A stretch of DNA of 56,641 nt, taken from Alistipes senegalensis (GTDB taxonomy: Bacteria > Bacteroidota > Bacteroidia > Bacteroidales > Rikenellaceae). Below the pieces are notes generated by a model, which had not been told where the DNA came from, made no database searches, and saw nothing but the letters and a program-made list of their open reading frames with translations. Positions 19,495 to 25,457 of the stretch are shown here, one piece after another. Positions within the stretch are counted from its first letter, which is position 1. Every line of letters begins with the position of its first letter. The position numbers were made by a program, and so were the translations under genes. The DNA lies in NCBI GenBank assembly GCA_023665825.1, contig JAMPDE010000002.1:30883-87523 (forward strand). Direction: 5' to 3'.

Positions 19495-20850
19495 ATGTCG
19501 AAAATCATCACTCTACGCAAGGGGCTCGACATCAACTTGGAAGGCAAACCCTGTCCGACGCTGGCCGATGCGCCTGCGGCGGCGGAGTATGCGGTTTCGC
19601 CGCTCGATTTCGAGGGGGTGACGCCCAAACTGTTGGTGAAGGAGGGCGACCGCGTGAAGGCCGGTACGCCGTTGTTCTTCAACAAGTACAGCGAGCGCGT
19701 GTTGTTCGTTTCGCCCGTCAGCGGTACGGTGGCCGCCGTCAATCGCGGCGAGAAACGCAAGGTGCTTTCCGTGACCGTCGCGCCCGATGCTCAGCCGAGC
19801 TACGAGGAGTTCGCCAAGCCCGATTTGCAGCAGGCTTCGCGCGACGAATTGATCGAGTTGTTGCTCCGCGCCGGTCTGTGGCCGATGCTCGTGCAGCGTC
19901 CCTACGGCATCATCGCCGATCCGGCCGATACGCCGAAAGCCATCTTCGTTTCGGCGTTCGATTCGGCGCCGCTGGCTCCCGATTACAACTTCGCGTTGCG
20001 CGACGAGCAGGCGAACCTGCAAGCCGGTATCGAGGTTTTGCGGAAACTCTCCGGCGGCAAGGTGCATCTTTCGATGCTCGCCGGTGCCGAAGGCCGCATG
20101 CCCGAGTTGAAGGGCGTCGAGCTGCACACGTTCGCCGGCAAACATCCTGCCGGTAACGTCGGCGTGCAGATCCACCACATCGACCCCGTGAACAAGGGCG
20201 AGATCGTGTGGACGGTGAACATTCAGGATTTGGCCATCATCGGTCGGCTGGTGCTTACGGGCCGCGTCGACATGACCCGCATCATCGCTGTCAGCGGTTC
20301 GGAGGTTGCGAATCCGCAGTATTATCGCGTCATCGCCGGCGCCCGCATGGATTCGCTGCTCGGAAACAACCTCAAATCGCAAAAGGAGGGCGACACGGTG
20401 CGCGTCATCTCGGGCAATGTACTGACCGGCACCAAAGTCGCGGCGGACGGGTTCTTGGGTTACTACGCCAATGCGGTGGCAGTCATTCCCGAAGGCGACA
20501 AATACGAGCTGCTGGGTTGGGCGATGCCCCGATTCAAGAAGTTCTCCGTGTCGCGGGCCTATTTCTCGTGGCTTTGCCCGAAAAAGGCCTACCGGTTGGA
20601 TACCAACATGAACGGCGGCGAACGTCCGTTCGTCGTGACGGGGCTTTACGAGAAGTATCTGCCGATGGACATCTACCCGATGTATCTGTTGAAGGCTTGT
20701 CTGGCCGGCGATATCGAAAAAATGGAGAATCTCGGCATATACGAGGTCGTCGAGGAGGATTTCGCCTTGTGCGAGTTCGTCGATCCGTCGAAAATCGACA
20801 TCCAGCAGATCATCCGCGACGGTATTAACTTAATGATCAAGGAGGCATAA
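19495..20850 (+). CDS. nqrA: Na+-translocating NADH:quinone reductase subunit A
   Basis: The product is 451 residues from ATG 19495 (the frame is open from 19447, but MSKIITLRKGLDINLEGKP is the family start). It is the cytoplasmic peripheral subunit of the six-subunit Na+-NQR. Family text includes GDRVKAGTPLFFNKY, LVQRPYGIIADP, GKHPAGNVGVQIHHIDPV, RVISGNVLTGT and LLKACLAGDIEKMENLGIYE. The complex oxidises NADH, reduces quinone and pumps Na+ out. It is the first gene of nqrABCDEF, and nqrB follows 3 bases later. Confidence 0.97.
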   Translation: MSKIITLRKGLDINLEGKPCPTLADAPAAAEYAVSPLDFEGVTPKLLVKEGDRVKAGTPLFFNKYSERVLFVSPVSGTVAAVNRGEKRKVLSVTVAPDAQPSYEEFAKPDLQQASRDELIELLLRAGLWPMLVQRPYGIIADPADTPKAIFVSAFDSAPLAPDYNFALRDEQANLQAGIEVLRKLSGGKVHLSMLAGAEGRMPELKGVELHTFAGKHPAGNVGVQIHHIDPVNKGEIVWTVNIQDLAIIGRLVLTGRVDMTRIIAVSGSEVANPQYYRVIAGARMDSLLGNNLKSQKEGDTVRVISGNVLTGTKVAADGFLGYYANAVAVIPEGDKYELLGWAMPRFKKFSVSRAYFSWLCPKKAYRLDTNMNGGERPFVVTGLYEKYLPMDIYPMYLLKACLAGDIEKMENLGIYEVVEEDFALCEFVDPSKIDIQQIIRDGINLMIKEA

Positions 20851-20853
20851 ACG

Positions 20854-22011
20854 ATGAGCGCAATCCGTAATTTAGTGGATAAAATCAAGCCGACGTTCGC
20901 CAAGGGCGGCAAGTTGGGCTTTTTGGAGTCGACGTTCGAGGCCTTCGAGACGTTCCTCTTCGTTCCGAACACCACGACGCGGCGCGGAGCCCATATCCGC
21001 GACTGCAACGACATGAAACGCACGATGATCATGGTCGTCGTCGCGTTGATGCCTGCCTTGTTGTTCGGTATGTACAATGTTGGGTATCAGCACTTCCTTT
21101 CGCTGGGCATTACGCCCGAATTCTGGACTTCGTTCTGGTTCGGCTTCCTGAAAGTGTTGCCGATGATCGTCGTTTCGTACGTCGTCGGGCTCGGCATCGA
21201 GTTCGCGTTCGCACAGATGCGCGGTCATGAGGTCAATGAGGGCTTCCTCGTCACGGGTCTGCTCATCCCGATGATCATGCCGGTCGACATTCCGTTGTGG
21301 ATGCTCGGCCTTTCGACCGCATTTGCCGTCATTTTCGGCAAGGAGGTATTCGGCGGTACGGGCATGAACGTCTTCAACCCCGCGTTGGTCGCCCGCGTGT
21401 TCGCATTCTTCGCCTATACGCCCGCCATGTCGGGAGCCAAAGTTTGGATTGCCGGTTTGACCTCCGGCGAGGGTGTCGTCGACGGATTTTCCGGTGCGAC
21501 GCCGCTCGAAAACCTCGTGACGAACGGACACATGGGCTATTCGACGCTCGACGCATTCTTGGGATTCATTCCCGGCAGCGTCGGCGAAACTTCGACGGTC
21601 GCCATTTTGCTCGGTGCTGCCATTCTGCTCTTCACGGGCATCGCTTCGTGGCGCACGATGGTGTCGGTATTCGCCGGCGGTTTGGCGATGGCTTTGGTCT
21701 TCAATATCTTCGGGTCGTCGGCTTATGCGCAGATTCCGGGCTGGTATCATCTGATTATCGGCGGTTTCGCATTCGGTGCCGTATTCATGGCCACCGATCC
21801 CGTTACTTCGGCACAGACCGCTGCGGGACAGTATATCGTCGGCTTTATGATCGGTCTGCTGGCTGTGTTGACCCGCGTCGTCAATCCGGCTTATCCCGAA
21901 GGCATGATGCTCGCCATTCTGTTCATGAATGCGCTGGCCCCGCTGGTCGACTACTACGTCGTCGAGGCCAGCATCAAGCGGAGAAACAAACGTATCACAA
22001 CGGCAAAATAG
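20854..22011 (+). CDS. nqrB: Na+-NQR subunit B
   Basis: The 385-residue multi-span membrane subunit binds FMN covalently on the Thr of the SGAT motif (Thr216 in DGFSGATPLEN). It also takes part in the Na+ path and in quinone binding. Membrane segments include MIMVVVALMPALLFGMYNVG, VLPMIVVSYVVGLGIEFAFA and several in the C-terminal half. Other family text: FNPALVARVFAFFAY and FMATDPVTSAQT. It lies 3 bases after nqrA and 7 before nqrC. Flavinylation needs an ApbE transferase, which is not in this window. Confidence 0.97.
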   Translation: MSAIRNLVDKIKPTFAKGGKLGFLESTFEAFETFLFVPNTTTRRGAHIRDCNDMKRTMIMVVVALMPALLFGMYNVGYQHFLSLGITPEFWTSFWFGFLKVLPMIVVSYVVGLGIEFAFAQMRGHEVNEGFLVTGLLIPMIMPVDIPLWMLGLSTAFAVIFGKEVFGGTGMNVFNPALVARVFAFFAYTPAMSGAKVWIAGLTSGEGVVDGFSGATPLENLVTNGHMGYSTLDAFLGFIPGSVGETSTVAILLGAAILLFTGIASWRTMVSVFAGGLAMALVFNIFGSSAYAQIPGWYHLIIGGFAFGAVFMATDPVTSAQTAAGQYIVGFMIGLLAVLTRVVNPAYPEGMMLAILFMNALAPLVDYYVVEASIKRRNKRITTAK

Positions 22012-22018
22012 GGGAGTT

Positions 22019-22870
22019 ATGGCAATGAAAAAATTCAGATGCAATGTTTGCGGCTATATCCACGAAGGAAATGCCGCTCCCGAAACCTGCCCCGTATGCG
22101 GTGCTCCCGCTTCGGAGTTCACGGAATTGAAATCCGAGCGTAAAAGCTGGTTGCACGACAAGAACAGCAACGCCTATATTTTGGTGTACGCTACGGTGAT
22201 GGTCGTCATCGTGGCCGCTGTGCTGGCGGTGGCTGCACTGTCGTTGAAAAGTCGGCAGGACGCCAATTCGCTCAACGAGAAGAAAGAGGCCATTCTCGCT
22301 TCGCTCGGCGCGGCGGAACAGCCTTACGACGAATACATCTCGGCTTACGCAGTCGATGCACAGGGCGAACGTATCGAATCCGTTTCGGCGGACGATGCCC
22401 TGCAAATGCTTTTCGACCTGAAAAAGGCCGAAGCTGCCGCAACCTATCCTGTCTTCGAGGCGGCGGACGGACGCATCGTCCTGCCCGTCAACGGTACGGG
22501 GCTATGGGGCCCGATTTGGGGTTATGTCGCTTTGGAGAAGGATATGGACACCGTCGTGGGTGCCGTCTTCGACCATAAGGGCGAAACGCCCGGTCTCGGT
22601 GCCGAAATCGCTACCGCGAAGTACCAGCGGCAGTTCGTCGGCAAGACGATTTTCGACGGCGACCGTTTCGTTTCCATCACGCTCCGCAAGGGCGGTGCCC
22701 AAGACCCCGCGCACGAGGTGGACGCCATCACGGGCGGTACGAAAACTTCGGACGGCGTAACGGCCATGTTGCAGAGCAGTCTGGGGCATTACCTCCCGTT
22801 GCTGGAAGCGCGCCGGGCTGGACGTTCCGATGCCGAAACTCCGTCCGACGAGGTCGAACAGAACCATTAA
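22019..22870 (+). CDS. nqrC: Na+-NQR subunit C with extra N-terminal rubredoxin-like domain
   Basis: The product is 283 residues from ATG 22019. Residues 1-38 are a rubredoxin-like zinc-ribbon/iron knuckle not usual in NqrC: CNVCGYIHEG (Cys8, Cys11) and CPVCGAPASEF (Cys24, Cys27). This matches the C-terminal rubredoxin domain of rubrerythrins. A membrane helix follows (about 52-74), then the standard NqrC periplasmic FMN domain with TGGTKTSDGV, where Thr241 is the covalent FMN site (SGAT-like). The start is firm because the first nqrC-like residues come after the four cysteines in one open frame and the ATG lies 7 bases after nqrB. The ribbon should face the cytoplasm. Confidence 0.93.
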   Translation: MAMKKFRCNVCGYIHEGNAAPETCPVCGAPASEFTELKSERKSWLHDKNSNAYILVYATVMVVIVAAVLAVAALSLKSRQDANSLNEKKEAILASLGAAEQPYDEYISAYAVDAQGERIESVSADDALQMLFDLKKAEAAATYPVFEAADGRIVLPVNGTGLWGPIWGYVALEKDMDTVVGAVFDHKGETPGLGAEIATAKYQRQFVGKTIFDGDRFVSITLRKGGAQDPAHEVDAITGGTKTSDGVTAMLQSSLGHYLPLLEARRAGRSDAETPSDEVEQNH

Positions 22871-22885
22871 GCCTTGTATAGCATT

Positions 22886-23515
22886 ATGAGCAACAAATCC
22901 GTAAAATATCTGACCGGCCCGTTCTCGGCGAACAATCCGGTCATCGTGCAGATACTCGGTATCTGTTCGGCGTTGGCCGTCACCGTGCAGCTGAAGCCCG
23001 CCATCGTCATGGCGTTGTCGGTCACGGTCGTCACGGCTTTCGCCAATTTAGTCATGTCGTTGTTGCGCAACGGCGTGCCGTCGCGCATCCGCATCATCAT
23101 CCAGTTGGTCGTCATCGCCGCGCTGGTCATCTTGGTCGACCAAGTGTTGAAGGCCTACGTCTTCGAGATTTCCAAACAGCTTTCGGTCTACGTGGGGCTG
23201 ATTATCACCAATTGCATCGTCATGGGGCGCGTCGAAGCGTTCGCACTGGCCAACAAGCCTTGGCCTGCGCTCCTCGACGGCATCGGCAACGGCTTGGGTT
23301 ACGGTCTGATTCTCGTTATCGTGGCTTTCTTCCGCGAGTTGTTCGGTTCCGGCACCTTGCTCGGTTACCGTATCATCCCCGAAAGCTGGTATATCGGCGA
23401 GGGCGGCTGGTACTCCAACTGCGGTCTGATGCTTTTCCCGCCGATGGCGTTGATTATCGTCGGCTGCATCATCTGGGTGCACCGCTCGCAAAACAAGGAT
23501 TTACAGGAAAAATAA
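22886..23515 (+). CDS. nqrD: Na+-NQR subunit D
   Basis: The 209-residue six-span membrane protein pairs with NqrE and shares an intramembrane 2Fe-2S cluster with it. Family text: LTGPFSANNPVIVQILGICSALAV in the first part, with the cluster Cys of GICSAL, then LIITNCIVMGRVEAFA and FFRELFGSGTLLG. The in-frame ATG at 22874 is less likely than 22886 (MSNKSVKYL). Members NqrD/NqrE are homologous to RnfA/RnfE. The gene lies between nqrC and nqrE in one operon. Confidence 0.96.
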   Translation: MSNKSVKYLTGPFSANNPVIVQILGICSALAVTVQLKPAIVMALSVTVVTAFANLVMSLLRNGVPSRIRIIIQLVVIAALVILVDQVLKAYVFEISKQLSVYVGLIITNCIVMGRVEAFALANKPWPALLDGIGNGLGYGLILVIVAFFRELFGSGTLLGYRIIPESWYIGEGGWYSNCGLMLFPPMALIIVGCIIWVHRSQNKDLQEK

Positions 23516-23531
23516 GGGAGGATAGCATCGT

Positions 23532-24152
23532 ATGGAATCATTGAATATCTTTATCCGGTCGATTTTCATCGACAACATGGTGTTCGCCTTCTTCTTCGGC
23601 ATGTGCTCTTACATCGCCGTGTCGAAGAGCGTCAAAACGGCTCTCGGGCTCGGCGCCGCCGTCACGTTCGTGATGACGATGACCGTGCCGTTGAACTACC
23701 TTTTGTACGAATACGTGCTGAAAGACGGTGCGCTGGCTTGGGCCGGTCTGCCCGACGTCAGCCTCGACTTCCTCACGTTCATCGTCTTCATCGCCACCAT
23801 CGCCGCGTTCGTGCAGTTGGTGGAGATGGCGGTCGAGAAGTTCTCGCCGACATTGTACAGCCAGTTAGGCATCTTCCTGCCGTTGATTGCCGTCAACTGC
23901 GCGATCATGGGCGGTTCGCTCTTCATGCAGCAGCAGGTCGACGGCGGCCAGCTCAATTCGGTGTGGCAGTCCCTCGTTTACGGTCTGGGCTCCGGTCTGG
24001 GCTGGTGGCTCGCGATCGTCATGATGGCCGCCATTCGCGAGAAAACGACCTATTCGCACATCCCGCCTGCCTTGAAAGGGCCCGGTATCGCGTTTATCAT
24101 CACCGGTCTGATGGGCATCGCGTTCATGATTTTCTCGGGAATCAAATTATAG
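23532..24152 (+). CDS. nqrE: Na+-NQR subunit E
   Basis: The 206-residue six-span membrane protein opens with SLNIFIRSIFIDNMVFAFFFGMC in two parts. Its Cys (GMCSYIAVSK) helps hold the NqrD/E 2Fe-2S cluster. FLPLIAVNCAIMGGSLF carries the second cysteine. Length and segments are normal. It starts 16 bases after nqrD and stops 36 bases before nqrF. Confidence 0.96.
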   Translation: MESLNIFIRSIFIDNMVFAFFFGMCSYIAVSKSVKTALGLGAAVTFVMTMTVPLNYLLYEYVLKDGALAWAGLPDVSLDFLTFIVFIATIAAFVQLVEMAVEKFSPTLYSQLGIFLPLIAVNCAIMGGSLFMQQQVDGGQLNSVWQSLVYGLGSGLGWWLAIVMMAAIREKTTYSHIPPALKGPGIAFIITGLMGIAFMIFSGIKL

Positions 24153-24188: not shown

Positions 24189-25457
24189 ATGAATATGACA
24201 ATCACGATATGCGTTGCGATCGGCGCTTTTTTGGCGATTACGCTCCTGTTGGTCGTGCTGTTGCTCTACGCCAAGGCGAAACTCACTTCGTCGGGCGAGG
24301 TGACGATCGACATCAACGGCGGTGAGCGCGTCATCACGGCCGAAAGCGGTTCGACCCTGCTCGCGACTTTGGCAAACAACAAGGTGTTCCTTCCGTCGGC
24401 TTGCGGCGGCGGCGGGTCGTGCGGCATGTGCAAGTGCCAAGTGTTGGAGGGCGGCGGCGATATCCTGCCGACCGAGACGGGTTTTATCTCGCGCAAAATG
24501 GCCAAAGACCATTGGCGTCTGGGCTGTCAGGTCAAGGTGAAGGAGAACCTCAAAATCAAGGTTCCCGAAGCCGTCTTGGGCGTCAAGAAGTGGGAGTGCA
24601 CGGTGGTTTCCAACCGTAACATCTCGACGTTCCTCAAAGAGTTCGTCGTGAAGCTGCCCGAAGGCGAGAATCTGAAATTCCGCAGCGGCGGATACATTCA
24701 GGTCGATATTCCCAAGTACGACAGCATCAAGTTCTCCGACATGGATATCGACGAGCGGTTCCGCGCCGATTGGGACAGCATGAAGATGTGGGACTTGGTG
24801 ACGACCAACCCCGAACCGACGTTCCGCGCTTACTCGATGGCCAACCACCCGGCCGAAGGCAACATCATCATGTTGAACATCCGTATCGCTACGCCGCCGT
24901 TCGACCGCGCCGCCGGTGCGTTCATGAAGGTGAATCCGGGTATCTGCTCGTCGTACGTTTTTTCGCGCAAGCCCGGTGACAAGGTGACGATTTCGGGCCC
25001 TTACGGCGAGTTCTTCCTGCCCGACAACCTGCCCGATACGCAGGAGTTGATTTTCATCGGCGGCGGTGCCGGTATGGCGCCCATGCGCAGCCACCTGATG
25101 CACTTGTTCAAGACCGAAAAGACCAAGCGGCCCGTGTCGTTCTGGTACGGTGCCCGGTCGTTGAAAGAGGCGCCTTACGTCGACGAATACCGCGCTATCG
25201 AGAAGGATTTCCCCAATTTCAGTTTCAATCTGGCACTCGACCGTCCTGATCCCGAAGCGGATGCCGTCGGCGAGAAGTATACACCCGGATTCGTGCACAA
25301 CGTGCTGTATGAGAATTATCTGAAAAATCATCAGGCACCCGAAGACTGCATCTATTTGATGTGCGGGCCTCCGATGATGATCGCTTCGGTCGTGAAGATG
25401 CTCGACAGTCTCGGCGTTCCGAGCGAGAATATCCTCTACGACAACTTCGGTTCGTGA
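24189..25457 (+). CDS. nqrF: Na+-NQR subunit F (NADH dehydrogenase, FAD and 2Fe-2S)
   Basis: The 422-residue protein takes electrons from NADH. Domains: membrane helix (residues 2-25), 2Fe-2S ferredoxin domain with CGGGGSCGMCKC (about 70-81), FAD domain with RAYSMANHP, and NADH domain with IFIGGGAGMAPMRSHL and the C-terminal YLMCGPPMM. All cofactor motifs are intact. It ends the nqr operon. A GTGCGG/CCGCAC hairpin lies just after the stop (about 25460-25480), before the converging dusB gene. Confidence 0.97.
   Translation: MNMTITICVAIGAFLAITLLLVVLLLYAKAKLTSSGEVTIDINGGERVITAESGSTLLATLANNKVFLPSACGGGGSCGMCKCQVLEGGGDILPTETGFISRKMAKDHWRLGCQVKVKENLKIKVPEAVLGVKKWECTVVSNRNISTFLKEFVVKLPEGENLKFRSGGYIQVDIPKYDSIKFSDMDIDERFRADWDSMKMWDLVTTNPEPTFRAYSMANHPAEGNIIMLNIRIATPPFDRAAGAFMKVNPGICSSYVFSRKPGDKVTISGPYGEFFLPDNLPDTQELIFIGGGAGMAPMRSHLMHLFKTEKTKRPVSFWYGARSLKEAPYVDEYRAIEKDFPNFSFNLALDRPDPEADAVGEKYTPGFVHNVLYENYLKNHQAPEDCIYLMCGPPMMIASVVKMLDSLGVPSENILYDNFGS

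Follow-up and report, generated by a model that had tools for sequence, protein, structure and literature searches.

In the Na+-pumping NADH:quinone oxidoreductase (NQR) of Vibrio cholerae, the NqrC helix crosses the membrane once and carries its flavin mononucleotide (FMN) domain in the periplasm, the cytoplasmic ferredoxin domain of NqrF is mobile, and the positions of the NqrC and NqrF helices differ between states (PMC10643135, PMC12174285; papers cited by PMC number were consulted as excerpts). The electron path of NQR is among the better-mapped of the ion-pumping chains and, in the excerpts of NQR papers, the cofactors are described as one fixed set. Here we examine the nqrC gene in a 56,641-nucleotide stretch of DNA ('the window'; assembly GCA_023665825.1, contig JAMPDE010000002.1, positions 30,883 to 87,523) from Alistipes senegalensis, of the Bacteroidales family Rikenellaceae. 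Its product begins with a rubredoxin-like domain. It is a conserved, real variant of a well-known enzyme, without a description in the literature searched, and a role for the added domain in branching the electron path is plausible.

A rubredoxin-like domain at the N-terminus of NqrC

The 283-residue product of nqrC (22019..22870, + strand) is confirmed as a real fusion of a rubrerythrin-type rubredoxin domain, a flexible linker and a complete NqrC. The first 38 residues (22019..22132) form the domain: PF21349 (RUBY_RBDX, the rubredoxin-like domain of rubrerythrin) matches residues 6-34 with an expectation value (E) of 3.6e-15 and 55.5 bits against a cut-off of 26.5. Its two CxxC knuckles consist of Cys 8, 11, 24 and 27 (codons starting at 22040, 22049, 22088 and 22097, + strand), exactly where the original prediction had placed them. 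An AlphaFold2 (AF2) model of residues 1-42 alone has a predicted local distance difference test score (pLDDT) of 88.9. It has the rubredoxin fold: the best matches in both sequence and structure are rubredoxin domains of rubrerythrins, and rubredoxins superpose at 0.7-1.8 Å. The classical rubredoxin family PF00301 stays below its cut-off of 23, at 11.8 bits with the full protein and 17.6 bits with a 51-residue piece. None of the ten families listed for this product (E up to 1) is the ferritin-like diiron domain PF02915, which the reverse rubrerythrin of the same genome does have. The domain probably binds metal, and one FeCys4 site is to be expected.

The claim that a normal NqrC follows also holds. 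A linker (residues 39-50, 22133..22168; pLDDT <50 at residues 40-47) leads into the N-terminal membrane helix (22169..22258), which is placed by homology to V. cholerae NqrC and by an AF2 helix at residues 51-95 whose first part is hydrophobic. The periplasmic FMN-binding domain is matched by PF04205 (FMN_bind) at residues 161-255 (22499..22783; 60.1 bits, cut-off 22), and the product as a whole scores 173.8 bits with TIGR01938 against a cut-off of 144. Within the motif DAITGGTKTS, Thr241 (22739-22741) is invariant in 5/5 and is the probable bearer of the FMN. The NqrC chains of the V. cholerae complex align from model residue 44-50 onward, 7xk3_C and 8ad0_C from residue 49-50.

We read 64 operons, 27 with the domain and 37 without. 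All 27 fused genes keep the four cysteines, and their first knuckle retains CGY and their second CP; in most of them the domain ends in APASxF, and the linker that follows, as delimited here, is 10 to 23 residues long. A 28th fused gene (L211, in G498) has the four cysteines and lacks APASxF. Between pairs of 21 genes of the family, the ratio of nonsynonymous to synonymous differences (pN/pS), from simple counts with no correction for saturation or for shared ancestry, is 0.20 in the domain and 0.32 over the opening 34 codons of the membrane part. The rubredoxin-like domain is under purifying selection.

The original prediction had allowed that translation might start after the cysteines, leaving the upstream codons untranslated and the domain an artefact of annotation. 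Between the last cysteine and the membrane helix, the TTG triplets at residues 37 and 45 are the only start-like codons, and GGAG lies upstream of the former. The ATG of nqrC is itself preceded by the ribosome-binding-like GGGGAG (22011..22016, + strand, read directly). Because the 27 fused genes keep their cysteines and the domain is under purifying selection, an error in the start codon is very unlikely; moreover, conservation at the protein level extends over four families, and the residue numbering of the crystal structure PDB 3LWX (see below) agrees with a protein that includes the domain. We therefore reject the late start and consider an artefact scarcely credible. As a separate observation, the TTG at residue 37 (22127-22129, with GGAG at 22114-22117) makes a minor, domain-less NqrC product conceivable.

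The operon nqrABCDEF is complete and in order on the + strand, and each gene exceeds at least one NCBIfam cut-off in the profile scan. Upstream of nqrC lie nqrA (19495..20850; NF003761 634 bits and TIGR01936 489 bits, both above cut-off) and nqrB (20854..22011; NF003756 501 bits and TIGR01937 459 bits, above cut-off), the latter with the FMN site SGAT at residue 213. Downstream are nqrD (22886..23515; NF006777 323 bits and TIGR01939 316 bits, above cut-off, in a scan that began at the second codon), nqrE (23532..24152; TIGR01940 289 bits, above cut-off) and nqrF (24189..25457; TIGR01941 600 bits, above cut-off), which encodes a ferredoxin-like [2Fe-2S] domain and a flavin adenine dinucleotide (FAD)/NADH domain. 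The closest named locus is from an uncultured Alistipes, with 92% identity in the nqrC product.

Distribution and history of the fusion

The search of homologues for the four-cysteine extension that the original prediction had called for gives a patchy distribution. Within the window's own family, 114 of 120 genomes had a match, which in 5 of the 114 lay in the rubredoxin domain only (by reading of rows; G030 had no printed row). This leaves about 109 genomes with nqrC, a few as fragments without the N-terminus. Of these, 20 have the fused gene; 13 are among the 32 of the window's own genus, and the other 7 are spread over the genera g3, g9, g16 and g20. All 20 were read in sequence, as were 37 of the approximately 89 others; the remainder were judged by alignment range alone. 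Across the order, a profile of the domain plus membrane helix was run on 393 genomes, with up to 13 candidates scored per genome. This profile matched eight fused loci, with E no higher than 6.2e-29; the hit that followed, at 9.5e-19, covered the rubredoxin part only. Excluding five members of the window's family, the fused form occurs in 7 of 388 other Bacteroidales genomes, in families f106 (2), f19 (3) and f42 (2), so that four sampled families of the order contain it. In a draw across the phylum, 54 of 395 genomes matched at E up to 1e-25; in the 49 of these that are Bacteroidota from outside the order, no extension was seen on the nqrC match, as judged by alignment range. The original prediction, whose interpretation is supported in part, knew of no described NQR with such a part. 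The domain is uncommon and the fusion is not described in the open-licence papers that we searched; it is not unique to this genome. Within the own genus, carriers tend to have larger genomes than non-carriers (mean 2.59 versus 2.07 Mb, 12 versus 16 genomes, p=0.04; rounded sizes without correction for the tree, and with the window's genome and three non-carriers left out).

Supported branches account for at least 7 or 8 changes in the presence of the domain. On an NqrC tree built without the domain it changes 10 times, at least 7 of them on starred branches; on a tree of NqrA, B, D, E and F from 62 operons there are 8 changes, all forced by starred branches; and on a wider NqrC tree of 77 rows there are 11, at least 9 starred. 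Explaining the pattern by losses only takes 15 or 17 events on two trees and by gains only 13 or 12, and neither is clearly cheaper. The window belongs, in the operon tree, to a group of four carriers whose sister group lacks the domain and includes a metagenome-assembled genome of A. senegalensis. Since both groups sit among carriers, the domain-less group is read as a loss; the NqrC trees do not have this sister relation. Two operons, L070 and L072, fall among other members of g20 by NqrC and beside out-of-family operons by the other subunits, and this disagreement makes an exchange between lineages possible. Linker-like tails that persist in some unfused relatives (L095-L100, L105 and L174; for example, MSKKKFLGGK in unfused L095 and APAKKGFLGGK in fused L070) speak for loss, and an internal Met in fused L067 and L121, at the position where unfused relatives start, would fit gain as well.

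As judged by identity, the nearest relative of the NqrC domain is the N-terminal domain of 'reverse' rubrerythrin. NqrC domains from different families share a mean identity of 0.65, compared with means, for those of the window's family, of 0.55 to reverse rubrerythrins and 0.38 to rubrerythrins, and this greater likeness among themselves favours an old NqrC-type domain rather than repeated capture. A domain tree (73 rows and 37 columns, with few resolved forks, and so unable to settle the origin) has the reverse rubrerythrins in one group (89/90), the rubrerythrins in another (100/100) and the NqrC domains between them. This placement does not favour a recent origin of each domain from the reverse rubrerythrin of its own genome. 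Two rows from f19 (L120 and L122) lie closest to the reverse rubrerythrins and join them at a starred fork (96/82), while five other NqrC rows stand weakly beside rubrerythrin; more than one origin is therefore possible.

A possible cytoplasmic outlet for electrons

The prediction of a cytoplasmic N-terminus for NqrC should hold by homology with the V. cholerae enzyme (PMC12174285, PMC10643135). Because the ferredoxin domain of NqrF is mobile on that same side, a domain tethered to the NqrC N-terminus should be within its reach. Anchored by the membrane helix, the domain would lie in the cytoplasm, where the NqrF ferredoxin domain delivers electrons to NqrD/E, and could take electrons from NqrF (from the FAD or the [2Fe-2S] cluster) ahead of the Na+-coupled steps. 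It might then pass them to rubredoxin and, through rubredoxin, to a flavodiiron oxygen reductase; the rubredoxin domains of rubrerythrin and reverse rubrerythrin would be alternative acceptors. NQR would thereby also be a membrane-docked NADH:rubredoxin reductase, with an optional branch that does not pump and that, in strict anaerobes, drains electrons into the removal of O2 and H2O2. Such a branch would be dispensable, which fits the repeated loss or exchange of the domain.

A rubredoxin-like centre in one fused flavodiiron protein has a reported potential of -56 mV, and those of rubrerythrin or nigerythrin lie at +213 to +281 mV (PMC9364112). With such values, electrons would run downhill from NADH to the domain and their return into the early pump would be unlikely. 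Reverse rubrerythrins of Clostridioides difficile reduce O2 and H2O2 in vitro, with NADH as donor via NROR and an Escherichia coli rubredoxin domain (PMC7482061), and in Bacteroides thetaiotaomicron rubredoxin receives part of its electrons from elsewhere than NROR (PMC5210497). The genome of the window itself encodes candidate acceptors: a reverse rubrerythrin (L002; PF21349 and PF02915), a rubrerythrin-like protein with a C-terminal domain (G000:C11:1331997; L187), a rubredoxin (G000:C22:270914) and a flavodiiron protein (G000:C11:307751). Each of 23 carriers has at least one RUBY_RBDX match beyond NqrC. We tentatively favour, at a little under an even chance, a cytoplasmic outlet from NqrF to O2 and peroxide reductases of the rubredoxin/rubrerythrin type that bypasses the pump. 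The broader proposal is possible, if rather less assured: that the NQR of these gut Bacteroidales is branched, pumping Na+ on the way to menaquinone and also, through an added FeCys4 centre on NqrC, drawing NADH electrons off at the cytoplasmic face and handing them to rubredoxin, rubrerythrin or flavodiiron proteins. This would make it a membrane-bound NADH:rubredoxin (peroxide and oxygen) reductase and a candidate for the rubredoxin electron source other than NROR in such anaerobes, with the domain gained and lost as a plug-in module.

Two sets of comparisons lend the outlet no support. After correction for the tree, and with little statistical power, rubredoxin, flavodiiron protein and cytochrome bd showed no co-occurrence with the fusion. 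Of the sites in the remaining Nqr subunits, 41 differ in at least 5 of 7 contrasts and none has disjoint residue sets, so that no change matches that in NqrC. A second PF00301 match is commoner in own-genus carriers (7/13 versus 0/16, p=0.001 uncorrected; the non-carriers G095, G106 and G118 were left out). The NROR C-terminal domain PF18267 was matched in 0 of 54 genomes, and the Bacteroides control was also without a match, though B. thetaiotaomicron is reported to have NROR. Cytochrome bd subunit I is present in 31 of the 54 genomes searched and was not found in that of the window (G000, 88% complete) or in the close carriers G115 and G093.

Other roles for the domain can be set against this evidence. 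From the same location near NqrF, the centre could act as a local electron sink or redox switch: it would accept electrons from the exposed flavin or the ferredoxin domain of NqrF and hold them, limiting flavin autoxidation when O2 leaks in, or would gate the pump by its redox state, all with no soluble partner. For N1a, an off-path cluster of complex I, suppression of reactive oxygen species by such electron withdrawal has been proposed (PMC5210497), and the lack of a co-occurring partner gene, for what that test can tell, fits a self-contained role. A single one-electron site is a small buffer, and the long flexible tether is better suited to docking several partners than to a fixed sink; we regard this idea as rather unlikely. 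Slightly less probable again is a structural ribbon in which the four cysteines bind Zn and the domain serves the docking or assembly of NQR, with no redox chemistry. The close match to rubrerythrin rubredoxin domains and rubredoxins, and the CGY and CP retained at the two knuckles in 27/27, argue against this, and close relatives without the domain keep the operon, meaning that it is not needed for assembly there.

A chance fusion that folds, plays no important role and is repeatedly lost would fit the 8 or more gains or losses on the operon tree, the persistence of linker-like tails in domain-less relatives and the absence of a co-occurring gene. We consider neutral shuffling of this kind improbable given a pN/pS of 0.20 and four cysteines retained even in distant families. 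Last, a reduced soluble carrier might dock on the domain and feed electrons into NQR, giving quinone a reductant other than NADH. The location would presumably permit contact with NqrF or NqrD/E, yet the reported potentials are well above that of NADH and the flow would be uphill; we judge this very improbable. Rubredoxin-like potentials of this order also lie above those of the early NQR centres. An additional conserved metal centre at this cytoplasmic end would give gut commensals a new branch point, one where energy conservation meets oxygen or peroxide defence.

In the window's genome (L215, G000:C22:269500-272500, minus strand) a 54-residue rubredoxin gene lies directly upstream of a superoxide dismutase-like gene, as judged by eye, and in an out-of-family carrier (L186, G160:C7:71000-74000) a small stand-alone protein of the rubrerythrin-type rubredoxin class (67-residue frame) adjoins a reverse rubrerythrin gene. 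In some Alistipes relatives, a single chain combines an Fe/Mn superoxide dismutase with a classical rubredoxin domain at the C-terminus (L219:1053-1832, + strand; PF00081, PF02777, PF00301). A chain of this kind was recognised by eye at L220:650-1387 (+ strand), and open frames of similar size in G046, G054, G087 and G091 are candidates by frame length only.

Relation to known NQR and rubredoxin systems

A fused NqrC probably lies behind one crystal structure. PDB 3LWX is the NqrC of Parabacteroides distasonis ATCC 8503, a 199-residue chain numbered 0 to 270. Its core is 89% identical to the fused L121 (270 residues, with SLRSF from residue 74) and 77% to the unfused L213 (227 residues). Because both numbering and identity fit a fused origin, the full P. 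distasonis NqrC probably has the rubredoxin-like domain, cut away for crystallisation, with 3LWX as the soluble part. The fused architecture is very probably shared with that protein, of which only the FMN domain has been solved. The word rubredoxin is absent from PMC4348036 and PMC4767422, which discuss 3LWX. Close relatives with and without the domain exist alongside a probable carrier that has a crystal structure of the remaining subunit.

With the NqrC of the V. cholerae and Prevotella bryantii Na+-NQR the fused protein has in common the transmembrane helix, the FMN domain, the setting of six nqr genes and a TIGR01938 score above cut-off. The V. cholerae subunit begins at the transmembrane helix, whereas here a 38-residue rubredoxin-like domain and a linker come first. 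A P. bryantii NQR modelling paper makes no mention of rubredoxin (PMC10739449), and the words 'rubredoxin', 'fusion' and 'extension' are absent from a 2025 RNF/NQR review (PMC12174285).

Reverse rubrerythrin, which joins an N-terminal rubredoxin domain to a diiron domain, carries its domain at the same end of the chain, but fused NqrC lacks the diiron domain. Class F flavodiiron proteins, in which flavodiiron, rubredoxin and NROR parts form one chain, likewise place a rubrerythrin-like rubredoxin domain in an NADH-fed path (PMC9364112). They are soluble oxidases, whereas fused NqrC, with no O2-reducing partner in its chain, is part of an ion-pumping membrane complex.
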